From positions 1-30,600 of the IMG/VR virus record IMGVR_UViG_3300049217_000106: DNA of 30,600 nt. One strand, 5' to 3'. The notes under the pieces were generated by a model that searched no databases, was not told the DNA's origin, and saw nothing but the letters and a program-made list of their open reading frames with translations. The translations under genes and the position numbers were made by a program. Position 1 is the stretch's first letter, and each line of letters starts with the position of its first letter. Positions 7,735-21,669 of the stretch are shown here, one piece after another. The stretch is from a virus.

Positions 7735-7976
7735 TTTTCAGATGTAGAAATGAGATATGTAATAATGAAATTAATCCCAATGAAGATTTGTTTTGTAAAT
7801 CATGCCGTGAGAGACTAAATCCTGAGGACGCTGCAATAAGAAAGTTTTGTGAAGAAAATCCTTCCTATTATGATCCAAATGGAGATTTACCAATTATTTT
7901 GGATAAAAATGGAAGGCAATTAACTCATGAAGAAATCTTAAGCGTATGCGATAGTCCGAACTCTGGGCATAAATAA
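7731..7976 (+). CDS. Small zinc-ribbon ORF that runs into intron remnant
   Basis: An 81-codon frame coupled to the replication gene by ATGA. The first 26 residues form a zinc-ribbon-like site, CRNEIC (C-x4-C) and CKSC (C-x2-C). From RERLNPE onward the frame reads through the conserved P7/P3/P8 strands of a group I intron and ends with CDSPNSGHK, the same C-terminus produced by the ORF in intron 1 (CDSPNSDHK). The middle (residues about 37-70) lies in the P8 loop and looks protein-like. I infer a native zinc-ribbon gene fused to inserted intron sequence, or an intron ORF whose 5' part was lost. Confidence concerns translation, not function. Confidence 0.4.
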   Translation: MIFRCRNEICNNEINPNEDLFCKSCRERLNPEDAAIRKFCEENPSYYDPNGDLPIILDKNGRQLTHEEILSVCDSPNSGHK

Positions 7977-8062
7977 AGCCACAGAAGAGTCCAGAAATGA
8001 GGCTCTCGCCTATGTGACAGCAATGTAACGCGATGTCATTTAGGTCAATAAGTAACAGAATG
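7802..8062 (+). ncRNA. Partial group I intron (3' half), ectopic
   Basis: The sequence CCGTGAGAGACTAAA is shared with capsid intron 1. P7 is GACTA (7813-7817) with TAGTC (7952-7956), followed by CCGAAC as in intron 1. P8 pairs ACGCT with AGCGT around an insert of about 100 bases. The 3' end has the family signature GTCAATAAGTAACAG and should end at G8062. P4 and P5 cannot be found upstream. One possible P3 strand, TTTTCAGAT at 7736-7744, can pair with ATCCTGAGGA (7819-7828) with the same bulged C as in introns 1 and 2, so a degenerate 5' half is not excluded. The 3' exon is a capsid gene fragment, but no capsid 5' exon precedes it. Confidence 0.75.
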
Positions 8063-8227
8063 ACAGGTCCGGTCCGCTCAGCATATTTTATGCTCAGCTC
8101 GACTGAACTACAATCCGACTTTGATAGTTTGGTGGGTTCTGGCTTTTTAAGTCAGTGGAATTACCCAACAAATGCAAGTGCTTTGCCTTCTGAATATGGC
8201 TCTGTTTTACAAAAAAGAATATTTTGA
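8063..8227 (+). pseudogene. Fragment of a second, diverged major capsid gene
   Basis: The frame starting just after the intron remnant encodes TGPVRSAYFMLSSTELQSDF and continues to SEYGSV near 8207. It aligns without gaps of note to TAPVRMAFFGLTHTNMSADL through SEWGSV of the resident capsid protein (residues 183 onward). The DNA is well diverged from the resident gene, so this is not a recent duplication. The frame ends at TGA 8227 after LQKRIF, so only about 50 of some 320 residues are present and no start or 5' exon exists. It is most simply a capsid exon that came in with the intron from a related phage. Confidence 0.75.
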
Positions 8228-18962: not shown

Positions 18963-19070
18963 ATGTCAGGTCCTACAACCAGTAGTATTCTGCCTCCAGC
19001 TGTACAACAGCAATTGAGCATGAAACTACTCGCTCGTCCTATGCCTGATCTGATCCATACGACGTTGGGT
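18963..19070 (+). CDS. Capsid gene exon 1 (36 codons)
   Basis: Encodes MSGPTTSSILPPAVQQQLSM and ends with ...TTLG at GGT. The last U pairs with G19079 in P1. The unspliced frame meets TAA at 19071. Confidence 0.85.
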
Positions 19071-21669
19071 TAACGGTAGCCCACTTAAAACTTTTGGTAA
19101 TTGACTTGGAAGCCCGACAGGGTGACAAGGCGGAAGATATGCAAACCATACAGCTAGATTATAATCAATTATTAGATTTAGTGATTGATTTAAAGATAAA
19201 TGAAAAAGAATGCTATCCTTTGGATACGTATAAATTTACTGATTATGTATGGAAAAAATATCACCGTGAGAGACTAAACCCAGAAGGCGCATTATGCGCA
19301 TGTGATAGTCCGAACAGCGACCATAAATAAAATCGCTGAGAGGGGAATAACAAGACCCTCCGCCTAGAAATAGGTCATAAAAGTAACAGATGTACCCCAT
19401 CACTATGGATCAGCAAGCAGGCGATATTCTACGTAGACGTAGATATAACAACCTCAAAACAGCTCCGGTGCCTTTGGGCAATGGAATTGTTAATCCTGCA
19501 GCTCAACAGCTCACCGCACTAGACATCGACGCAAGGATCGACTGGTACGGAACTTACATGATACTACAAGAGCAAGTTATGCTCATAAACGAAGACCCTA
19601 GAGAACAATTGCAATTAGCTGCTTAACAATTTAACTTGTTCCTAAAACACGATATTGATATACTTCCTTTTTAAATAGGAGGTTGTCATGCAAGAGAAAG
19701 AATTAATGAGTTATTTATCAGGATTAATGGACGGAGATGGAAGTTTTACGATTGGCAAATTAAAAAATGCTAGTCGTTCACCTTTATATTATCCATTAAT
19801 ACAATTTGGTTTCCAAAAAAAGGATATCGTTAATATTTTTATGGAAAAGTTCGGTGGTTCATTCACTGAAATAGATCCTAAAAAAGACAAACGATACAAA
19901 CAATCTTTTTTCTCGTGGAGACTAAGAAGTTCTGATAATGTTATCCCTGTTCTTGAAAAACTCATCGAATTTCTTATCTTAAAAAAGGAAAGAGCGGAAT
20001 ATCTTTTAAGTTTCTGCAAAAATTTTTCTTTCAAACGAGGATTGATGGTTGACAAAGATATTCTTGTCGAAAGAGAAAAAGCATATTTAAAAATGGGTCA
20101 GATGAACGATTGCAGGATATTTACTGGTTTAGAAAAAACCTATAGACCTGTCAAAAATGAATCATGTGCTTATTTTTGGTCTTATGTAGCAGGAATTATA
20201 GATTCTGACGGTTCTTTTTCAATTAAAAAGCAAAAATATCAATATGGTCAAAGATATAGTGCCGTTATCAGTATTGATATGGTAGATCCTAAATCTATTG
20301 ATTATATAGCATCTAAAACAACATTTGGACGAGTTGAAGCAAATAAAATGAAAGCTTGTACAAATGGAATTTGTTATCGTCTTTCGATATGCAAAAAAGA
20401 TGATGTTATTGCTTTTTTAGAAAATGTAATTCCCTTTTTACGTGTTAAAAAAGAACAAGCTAAAACCCTTCAAGAATTTTGCTCAAACTGGAAAAATACT
20501 GGCTATTGTAAAGCTGGTGTACCACTTGAAGAAATGGCATTTCGAGAAGAATGCCATCAAAAGATTAAACAGTTAAACAAATATGGGGTCTATAAACCGT
20601 CGGTAATTGACTCGGAACTCCAAAAGCAGGACAACGAGGGCCAAGCAGGAAACGTGCAGGCTGAACGACTAAACCCGATGGACTCGAAAGAGTGTGTAAT
20701 AGTCTGAACACGGACAATAGCTAATGAAATCCGTGAGGGTGGGTCGAAGAACCCGCCCCGCCTAGAAATAGGTCATAAAGTAACAGATAGGTATTAAACA
20801 GTGCAGTGTCCGTTTTAGGCCAGTCTCTTCGTGAAACGGAAGACCAATTGGCTCGTAGTATGATGGAGGGTGGTGCTCCACCAGTTAATTGTACCTCGGG
20901 TACAAACGGTAGAGTTGCCGTTTTAAAACCTTCTCTGATTGAGGTGGAACTCTGTTTTTATGTAACAGACAACACTGCGCAAGCCGTAATGGCAGCGTAA
21001 ACGACTGAGTGAGAAGGATTGAGTTATGTAACGCGATGTAACTCAATATGCGACAGTCTGATCTCATAGGCGACTATGAGAGGAATCTCCGAAGAGGGAT
21101 TCCCGCCCATGATATAGGGTCAACAAAGTAACAGGGGTTAGGACAACCCAACTAATATCACTCCATTGGATTGCAGCAAAGCCGTCCGCTTATTGCGCAC
21201 TGCAAATGCCCAATTCATCATGGATATGATAGAAGGTGAATTGAAATTTGGAACTGCTCCAGTGAGGATGGCTTTTTTTGGTTTGACTCATACTAATATG
21301 AGTGCCGACTTAGACCAGATGGTTGGATTTATCAACGTTGCGAATTACGCAAATAACTCCAATTTGCTTATGAGCGAATGGGGCAGCGTTCGAAATTTGC
21401 GTTTCTTATTGTCTTCAGTCGGAAGCGTTTCCGTTGGTGCTTCTGCCTTGGGTGCGGATATTTATAATATCTTCATTCCTGGTCAGGAAAGCTATGACAT
21501 GATTGACTTGGATGGCTATAGTGCACAATTCATCTATGCGCCGCCTGAGATCGCATCGCCACAATTAAGACTGTATCAGACAGCGGGTTGGAAGATGGCG
21601 CAAGTATTCAACATCACGAATACTTCTTGGATCATTAATCTACGCTGCACACTTGCAGTGGCTATTTAA
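18963..21669 (+). CDS. Major capsid protein, N4 gp56 family, split by three group I introns (join 18963..19070, 19393..19599, 20791..20910, 21142..21669)
   Basis: Joining the four exons gives 320 residues with no stop. The N-terminal KLLARPMPDLIHTTLG joins YPITMDQQAGDILRRRRYNN, giving the family's loss-free pattern of a helix, L-I-H-T-x-x-G, a strand, then a basic R-R-Y. Exon 2 ends INEDP and exon 3 continues VLNSAVSVLGQSLRETEDQL, the family's E-D-P-V-L-(x6)-LG-x-(x7) motif. Exon 3 ends CTSGTNG and exon 4 resumes DNPTNITPLDCSKAVRLLRT. Exon 4 holds the rest of the shell fold. AAAGGT precedes the ATG. Without splicing, exon 1 stops one codon into intron 1. Family from motif recognition; splice sites from P1/P10 pairing. 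Confidence 0.85.
19071..19392 (+). ncRNA. Group I intron 1 in capsid gene (322 nt)
   Basis: P1: exon TGGGT with GCCCA (19079-19083), U-G at the splice site. P10: GGTA upstream of that G pairs with TACC at 19393. P3: CTTTTGGT (19091-19098) with ACC[C]AGAAG (19278-19286). P4: CTTG/CAAG (19105-19108, 19126-19129) with a CCC-GACA-GGG hairpin between. P7: GACTA/TAGTC (19272-19276, 19306-19310). The tail has GAGGG/CCCTC and CCTA-GAAA-TAGG hairpins, then GTAACAG; last base G19392. No P2. A small ORF fills the loop between P6 strands. Confidence 0.88.
19139..19330 (+). CDS. Possible intron-encoded 63-residue ORF
   Basis: Lies in the P6 insertion of intron 1 with AAGG eight bases upstream. MQTIQLDYNQLLDLVIDLKI and a short KFTDYVWKKYH segment appear protein-like, then RERLNPE and CDSPNSDHK are translations of the P7/P8 strands. 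No endonuclease motif (LAGLIDADG, GIY-YIG, HNH) is present, so it may be a degraded endonuclease ORF or a chance frame. Confidence 0.3.
   Translation: MQTIQLDYNQLLDLVIDLKINEKECYPLDTYKFTDYVWKKYHRERLNPEGALCACDSPNSDHK
19393..19599 (+). CDS. Capsid gene exon 2 (69 codons)
   Basis: Encodes YPITMDQQAG through MLINEDP. Start fixed by P10 with intron 1 and end fixed by AGACCCT pairing with GGGGTCT of intron 2. Reading past 19599 gives 8 extra codons to a stop at 19626. Confidence 0.85.
19600..20790 (+). ncRNA. Group I intron 2 in capsid gene, with homing endonuclease (1191 nt)
   Basis: P1: AGACCCT (19593-19599) with GGGGTCT (20585-20591), 7 bp with U-G; the endonuclease gene lies in the P1 loop. 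P10: ATAT before that IGS pairs with GTATT at 20791. P3: CCGTCGGT (20597-20604) with ACC[C]GATGG. P4: CTCG/CGAG. P7: GACTA/TAGTC (20667-20671, 20700-20704). P8: GACTC-GAAA-GAGT. The tail shares CGCCTAGAAATAGGTCATAA with intron 1; last base G20790. P3 and P4 differ from intron 1 by compensating changes. Confidence 0.9.
19688..20707 (+). CDS. LAGLIDADG homing endonuclease, intron 2-encoded
   Basis: A 339-residue two-motif LAGLIDADG protein: LSGLMDGDG at residues 10-18 and VAGIIDSDG at 167-175, both with the catalytic Asp, so it can act as a monomer cutting an asymmetric intronless capsid site. Each motif is followed by SF and a beta-rich half-domain; the halves look like a duplicated fold. AGGAGG lies six bases before the ATG. 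From about residue 297 (NKYGVYKPS) the frame passes through IGS, P3-P8 and ends within P7 (SKECVIV), so the last ~45 codons double as ribozyme core. Such enzymes mobilise the intron into empty alleles. No sign of inactivation. Confidence 0.93.
   Translation: MQEKELMSYLSGLMDGDGSFTIGKLKNASRSPLYYPLIQFGFQKKDIVNIFMEKFGGSFTEIDPKKDKRYKQSFFSWRLRSSDNVIPVLEKLIEFLILKKERAEYLLSFCKNFSFKRGLMVDKDILVEREKAYLKMGQMNDCRIFTGLEKTYRPVKNESCAYFWSYVAGIIDSDGSFSIKKQKYQYGQRYSAVISIDMVDPKSIDYIASKTTFGRVEANKMKACTNGICYRLSICKKDDVIAFLENVIPFLRVKKEQAKTLQEFCSNWKNTGYCKAGVPLEEMAFREECHQKIKQLNKYGVYKPSVIDSELQKQDNEGQAGNVQAERLNPMDSKECVIV
20791..20910 (+). CDS. Capsid gene exon 3 (40 codons)
   Basis: Encodes VLNSAVSVLGQSLRETEDQL through CTSGTNG. 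The boundary at 20791 is set by the five-base P10 (GTATT) and gives the family motif E-D-P-V-L-N across the junction. It ends at GGT before AGAGTT of intron 3. Confidence 0.85.
20911..21141 (+). ncRNA. Group I intron 3 in capsid gene (231 nt, no ORF)
   Basis: P1: exon AAACGGT (20904-20910) with GCCGTTT (20917-20923), 7 bp including U-G. P10: GTT before that G pairs with GAC at 21142. P3: CCTTCTC (20929-20935) with GAGAAGG (21011-21017). P4: GGTG/CACT. P7: GACTG/CAGTC (21003-21007, 21054-21058), a compensated change from GACTA/TAGTC. P8: ATTGAGTTA/TAACTCAAT, 9 bp. A CTCATAG-GCGA-CTATGAG hairpin follows. Tail GTCAACAAAGTAACAG then GGGTTAG; last base G21141. The shortest, probably most streamlined copy. 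Confidence 0.9.
21142..21669 (+). CDS. Capsid gene exon 4 (175 codons and stop)
   Basis: Encodes DNPTNITPLDCSKAVRLLRT to the C-terminus TLAVAI. The codon just before 21142 in this frame is TAG, so the exon cannot extend left. It holds the region that aligns with the stray capsid fragment at 8063 (TAPVRMAFFGLTHTNM). Confidence 0.85.
   Translation, partial: DNPTNITPLDCSKAVRLLRTANAQFIMDMIEGELKFGTAPVRMAFFGLTHTNMSADLDQMVGFINVANYANNSNLLMSEWGSVRNLRFLLSSVGSVSVGASALGADIYNIFIPGQESYDMIDLDGYSAQFIYAPPEIASPQLRLYQTAGWKMAQVFNITNTSWIINLRCTLAVAI

Follow-up and report, generated by a model that had tools for sequence, protein, structure and literature searches.

The window analysed here, that is, the whole stretch of DNA under study, is a 30.6 kb virus record (IMG/VR record IMGVR_UViG_3300049217_000106) from a phage described as uncultured and soil-type. 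Its major capsid protein (MCP) gene, at 18963–21669 on the plus strand, is split into four exons by three group I introns, and the reading frame of the unspliced message, where it runs on into introns 2 and 3, ends in Ala-Ala-stop, an end conserved in frame among the introns of related phages. The best explanation overall, which we consider probable, combines three self-splicing group I introns with Ala-Ala-tagged read-through fragments. A more far-reaching joint reading holds that the introns evolved in-frame Ala-Ala degron ends, a counterpart in cis of tmRNA tagging, and that the catalytic core of one intron type, inserted at site 293 in relatives, splices core-less mini-introns 26–31 nt upstream, acting as a natural group I 'spliceozyme'. 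The sequences incline slightly towards this joint reading; its degron part includes the window, and its mini-intron part concerns relatives only.

According to the mechanism proposed, the exons would be joined by means of the P1 guide of each intron and its terminal G, and translation of the spliced message would give the 320-residue capsid protein. A ribosome on the unspliced message would stop inside the first intron it meets: at once in intron 1, 36 codons into the gene, where TAA stands at the splice site, and in intron 2 (after 105 codons) or intron 3 (after 145), following the addition of a short tail ending in Ala-Ala. This tail would consign the truncated capsid fragment, a potential poison of shell assembly, to destruction.

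Three group I introns in the capsid gene

Removal of the introns (19071–19392, 19600–20790 and 20911–21141) yields a frame of 960 nt plus stop, free of internal stops, which encodes a protein of 320 residues in exon 1 (18963–19070, residues 1–36), exon 2 (19393–19599, residues 37–105), exon 3 (20791–20910, residues 106–145) and exon 4 (21142–21669, residues 146–320 and the stop). A survey of IMG/VR provided 79 relative loci, whose best capsid segments are 78–94% identical, and in 14 of them (L001–L014, 87–92% identical) the capsid gene is uninterrupted, so that all three junctions in the window are fixed to the base and all lie in phase 0. Both the coordinates and the phase had been proposed earlier from the letters alone (the sequence-only reading) and are now confirmed. 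Residues 5–313 of the spliced product match PHROG 1357, 'major head protein' (4e-30), a full-length match to an MCP family and the outcome that the proposed protein search was expected to have. The more specific label 'N4 gp56-type' found no confirmation in Pfam, where only PF25209 (Phage_capsid_4) was matched, at 20.7 bits and under its cutoff of 27. The best capsid among 25 annotated phage records is just 27% identical, and the window phage therefore belongs to an uncultured group; a search for capsid relatives in bacterial and archaeal genomes found none.

That the gene is simply decaying, as a pseudogene broken by insertions or as an assembly artefact, might be suspected from its four open pieces and from the presence, elsewhere in the record, of a further capsid fragment, a fossil. 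The spliced frame, however, is intact at 960 nt, and its comparison with the intronless gene of L001 gave 196 synonymous changes against 26 changed codons, which indicates purifying selection on the spliced gene. Dozens of metagenome contigs, independent of one another, have introns of the same types at identical positions, and decay can be regarded as most improbable.

All three introns follow an exon U and have G as their last base, their P1 ends in a U·G pair, and P2 is absent; this absence and the shared tail GTAACAG had been recognized correctly from the letters alone. Intron 1 (site 108 in the numbering of the spliced gene) starts with the TAA stop right at the 5′ splice site and carries an insertion in P6. 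Its internal guide at 19075–19083 offers GGUA for P10, with UACC at 19393–19396 as partner, and GCCCA for P1, with UGGGU at 19066–19070. The insertion holds an open reading frame (ORF) of 78 residues (19094–19330) without a family match. Short P6-extension ORFs of this uncharacterised kind also occur in the site-293 introns of L034, L051, L057 and L066, and a purine-rich AAGGCGGAAG-type stretch, which could serve as a ribosome-binding site, often lies just 5′ of them. Intron 2 (site 315) pairs its guide GGGGUC (20585–20590) with GACCCU (19594–19599) in P1 and has the P10 pairing AAUAU/GUAUU. In its P1 loop it accommodates a homing endonuclease gene of the LAGLIDADG type (19688–20707, 339 residues; Pfam PF00961, 1.6e-9, over cutoff). 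Approximately 1 kb precedes the core in long site-315 introns (the window intron and those of L038, L041, L044, L060 and L078); in the window this part is the endonuclease gene, with the Ala-Ala end in the variable part before it. Intron 3 (site 435) is minimal, without an endonuclease gene, with P1 formed by AACGGU/GCCGUU and a weak P10 of 3 bp.

Assignment to group I rests on a covariance model, R1, built from eight minimal introns of other phages (196–284 nt), no window intron included. In the window capsid gene R1 found exactly three introns, with rounded E values of 2e-31, 5e-41 and 5e-36 in gene order (19063–19392, E 1.8e-31; 20567–20790, E 5.4e-41; 20903–21137, E 4.7e-36). Among the relatives it produced 113 matches, spread over 50 loci and including separate halves of introns divided by an endonuclease gene; on intronless relatives it gave no significant match. 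In the eight model introns, a P3–P9.1 structure with the P3/P7 pseudoknot leaves 84% of the cells paired, compared to 66% after shuffling and 39–52% after sliding, and both-sided pair changes in these helices amount to 25 versus 15.8 shuffled. P4 and P7 are paired in 8/8, and P6 aligns poorly (37.5% of the cells paired). A covarying core of P3/P7 pseudoknot, P4–P5 and P8 is thus present in window introns 1–3, and together with the R1 matches and the intact relatives it bears out the original proposal of three group I introns in the capsid gene.

The check suggested along with that proposal, a covariance search with the Rfam model RF00028, detected no window intron, neither at the gathering threshold nor at E ≤ 10, and it took a model specific to the family to find them. 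In a comparable search RF00028 does detect T4 and Twort introns, and it matches same-family introns in L068 (site 435, 1.1e-6) and L031 (site 293, 2.3e-5), both below gathering. Since RF00028 is a model for detection and does not define the mechanism, the window introns were filed as group I on their structure: on sequence evidence, they belong to group I but escape the Rfam model, and splicing in vivo can be taken as nearly certain.

Ala-Ala-stop ends of the unspliced reading frames

When each capsid frame of the 79 relatives was translated into its unspliced intron, a common end emerged at nearly all sites past site 108, namely (L/I/M/K/T)-Ala-Ala-stop. In the window, the extension into intron 2 (19600–19626) reads REQLQLAA-stop, and the one into intron 3 (20911–21000) ends in NTAQAVMAA-stop, with the Ala codons at 20992–20997 and the stop at 20998–21000; both are putative degrons. 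In very divergent loci frame assignment is unreliable where only the 3′ half matches or a core-less mini-intron (see below) lies ahead, and the counts make no use of such assignments. Past site 108, 63 of 86 introns end in Ala-Ala and four more in x-Ala; the residual 19 are without exception site-293 introns behind a mini-intron which itself bears the tag, and with introns behind minis set aside the share becomes 62/66. In the two wrong frames the same end occurred once in ≈ 168 cases. The background in these loci, counted over all stops in six frames, is 228/69414 (0.33%), or 3% of ORFs of at least 100 residues. Most introns at site 108, just 36 codons from the start of the gene, bring an immediate stop, and the first 150 nt of 27 same-family introns at this site contained no Ala-Ala-stop in any frame.

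The dependence on neighbouring elements is seen most clearly at site 293, where Ala-Ala ends just 1 of 31 introns behind a mini-intron, as against 10 of 15 without one (Fisher 7e-6); these 10/15 come from divergent capsids, with 25–53% identity over the aligned exons. The mini-introns at site 267, likewise from phages with divergent capsids, end in Ala-Ala or Val-Ala in 11/11 cases, three of them by reading the following micro-exon out of frame.

As an alternative, these could be ordinary group I introns whose Ala-Ala-stop reflects an RNA-level motif (GCNGCNTAR) or arises as a by-product of stem sequences, with no role in protein turnover. Such a motif does lie in or near the P5 loop of many introns, and the sequence is common to members of the family. 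On the other hand, the frame of the exon is kept at sites of all three phases, and the third codon positions vary: GCT, GCA, GCG and GCC are all used for the tag, and so are all three stops. Moreover, the place of the tag changes, from the P5 region in most introns to P6 in others (including window intron 3), the P1 loop of the long site-315 introns (including window intron 2) and the linker or loop of the mini-introns, with none in any frame at site 108. An explanation at the RNA level thus appears unlikely to us.

The preferred reading takes the tail for a degron. Recognition of the ssrA degron by ClpXP depends above all on the terminal Ala-Ala with its carboxylate (PMC7652416), and at the level of sequence an ssrA-like end of this kind is present here. 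The tail looks like an intron-encoded degron of the ssrA/ClpXP type, and the simplest reading of the Ala-Ala pattern would be selection for the destruction of capsid fragments made from unspliced message. The intron architecture, the exact junctions, the in-frame Ala-Ala-stop and its conservation are observed directly in the sequences; that the tagged fragment is degraded, and that protection of shell assembly is the reason, we infer as likely.

Several points weigh against this interpretation. Introns at the same site are akin, so that the counts do not represent independent events, although the pattern is seen at 11 of 12 sites. In some divergent phages the tag is missing, as in L127 (ending in KILCRS), in L112 and L141 (stop after one codon) and in L125. 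The introns of T4 td, nrdB and nrdD and one Twort intron lack such a tail, which is hence not general to phage introns. An LAA tail alone did not lead to degradation of tightly folded GFP (PMC7652416), and whether the tail takes effect depends on how the fragment is folded. Finally, the protease specificity of the host may not be of the ssrA/ClpXP kind.

Core-less mini-introns in related phages

In 32 relatives an insert of 32–79 nt without a core occurs, always ahead of a full group I intron at site 293. One type sits at position 262 (21 distinct loci, 36–51 nt; L027–L066, comprising 20 loci, L087 and L089), the other at position 267 (11 loci, 32–79 nt; L113, L116, L120, L129, L132, L134, L136, L138, L139, L146 and L292). 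The window has no such insert. The insertion points are given by intact homologues, and R1 found no core in the inserts, its matches being restricted to the neighbouring intron. No mini was seen in the absence of the 293 intron, whereas the latter also exists by itself.

The minis have an exon U in front, a P1 guide with P1 ending in U·G, a linker that pairs with the next micro-exon, and a final G. The micro-exon between the mini and the 293 intron measures 31 nt for site 262 and 26 nt for site 267. P10 joins the base run just 5′ of the P1 guide to the first bases of the 3′ exon, as CCGU/ACGG or CCAU/AUGG at 262, and as CAGU/ACUG, CUGU/ACAG, CCGU/ACGG or AAGU/ACUU at 267. All four P10 pairs form in 21/21 minis at site 262 and in 9/11 at site 267, values equalled by permuted partners in 1/20000 and 0/20000 trials, respectively. 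If the mini and the 293 intron are removed separately, the gene is restored (956–960 nt aligned), and the motif (I/V)DWYG(T/S)Y(I/L)ILQEQV appeared in 15/15 genes checked. A direct splice from 262 to 294, skipping the micro-exon, was rejected, as it would lose 31 coding nt and shift the frame.

Short inserts with hairpins within a coding frame also recall the translational bypass element of T4 gene 60, in which case they would not be introns at all. Their lengths, however, vary modulo 3, at site 262 they start inside a codon, and no matched take-off and landing codons were seen, whereas P1 (with its U·G) and P10 obey the rules of group I introns with covariation. The bypass explanation was rejected as very unlikely. 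We consider it highly probable that the minis are removed as RNA by splicing, and likely, with somewhat less confidence, that the neighbouring 293 core excises them, one core thereby serving two introns. The 293 introns behind a mini are mostly untagged (one of them does end in Ala-Ala), and messages from which the mini has gone and in which the 293 intron is kept are therefore probably rare; the order of excision would thus be constrained.

Two loci show full introns at the mini sites. In L062 (4042–4730) a full intron resides at site 262, with a core that groups with the site-293 cores; judged by its sequence, this type of core would serve the P1 of site 262 as well. In L127 (4120–4622) full group I introns are found at both 267 and 293, separated by just 26 nt of exon, and this double-intron layout is a possible ancestor of the mini arrangement.

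Intron hot spot, ancestry and known systems

In the spliced alignment, for which sites 262 and 293 were aligned by hand and L023 was left out, insertions fall at positions 108, 235, 262, 293, 312, 315, 353, 399, 435, 546 and 645, in all three phases. At least one insertion is present in 43 of 57 complete capsid genes, with up to four per gene. By this comparison of sequences, introns concentrate in the capsid gene, a hot spot in which no fewer than 11 sites are used. In 23 longer records of relatives, R1 introns are almost restricted to the capsid gene; the one clear same-family intron elsewhere among the records searched (L136, 2563–2773) lies ≈ 25 codons into its gene and brings an immediate stop, as at site 108. 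A tree of the intron cores requires 21 site changes, compared to 45.6 with shuffled labels. Window intron 1 is nearest to the site-108 intron of L032 and window intron 3 to the site-435 intron of L061; the core of window intron 2 is nearest to the site-108 introns of L020 and L015. The few site changes and the same-site nearest cores give no support to a spread within the window gene, which the sequence-only reading had assumed for the three introns as one family. Judged from the tree, each site mostly has its own lineage, by inheritance or homing, with occasional moves between sites and no burst inside the window gene.

A fourth intron exists in the window as a fossil: the 3′ remnant of a same-family group I intron of the site-546 type at 7831–8062 (plus strand; R1 E 1.6e-13), followed at 8063–8224 (plus strand) by a fragment of 54 residues from a different MCP lineage, which starts exactly at intron site 546 and is ≈ 87–93% identical to capsids of loci that include L264, L240 and L213. 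By its sequence, 7831–8224 records a past exchange with another phage group, which left part of a foreign capsid gene at a distance of 11 kb from the working copy. This fossil, the in-frame Ala-Ala-stop ends and the hot-spot pattern across relatives had been absent from the sequence-only reading.

If degron-bearing introns do reside in an abundant structural gene, mobile introns would escape the danger of dominant-negative fragments by way of the protein quality control of the host, a direct molecular case of accommodation between intron and host. If the neighbouring core removes the minis, dependence of an intron on an outside catalytic core would exist today in group I form and could be studied in short constructs. 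A step of this sort is assumed to have led from self-splicing introns to the spliceosome. Furthermore, the Rfam group I model misses a large family of phage introns, and metagenome capsid genes are probably often annotated as broken.

Introns in capsid genes as such are of an already known kind (PMC7886860, PMC3706429). In crAss-like Zeta phages, an unrelated phage group, the MCP gene is likewise in several pieces owing to group I introns, the protein being split into five fragments (PMC7886860), so that to call three introns in one capsid gene unusual had been an overstatement; in the accessible part of that source neither Ala-Ala tails nor core-less mini-introns are reported. Mycobacteriophage LittleE has a probable group I intron with a LAGLIDADG-like ORF in its capsid gene, the splicing of which was demonstrated by RT-PCR (PMC3706429); it is a single intron, and the portion of the report available mentions no tag or hot spot. 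Coding genes of T4 (td, nrdB, nrdD) and Twort are likewise interrupted by group I introns, which bring an in-frame stop close to the 5′ splice site; homing endonucleases occur there too. The read-through ends of these introns differ (td VFLG*, nrdB VSFA*, nrdD YELT*, the Twort intron RSFT*; * denotes the stop), none being Ala-Ala, and RF00028 gives high scores to the best of these introns but not to those of the window.

Neither intron-encoded degrons nor natural core-less group I introns, and hence neither the degron-like ends nor the minis of the relatives, were found described earlier in the literature searched, which was thin on subscription journals. The closest counterpart of the tails is the ssrA tag, which places an LAA or Ala-Ala C-terminal end on an incomplete protein and directs it to ClpXP (PMC7652416); read-through at site 235 of L053 ends in YALAA, like the E. 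coli ssrA tag. There the tag is added by tmRNA, whereas here the tail, as a putative degron, would be encoded in cis by the intron. For the minis, the counterpart is found in engineered group I spliceozymes, in which a core removes a separate, core-less intron by means of P1 and P10 (PMC4094466, PMC4509937). The engineered intron removed is ≈ 100 nt long, the phage minis 32–79 nt, and whereas the spliceozymes are designed, built on the Tetrahymena scaffold and act in trans, the phage case would be natural, adjacent and in cis.

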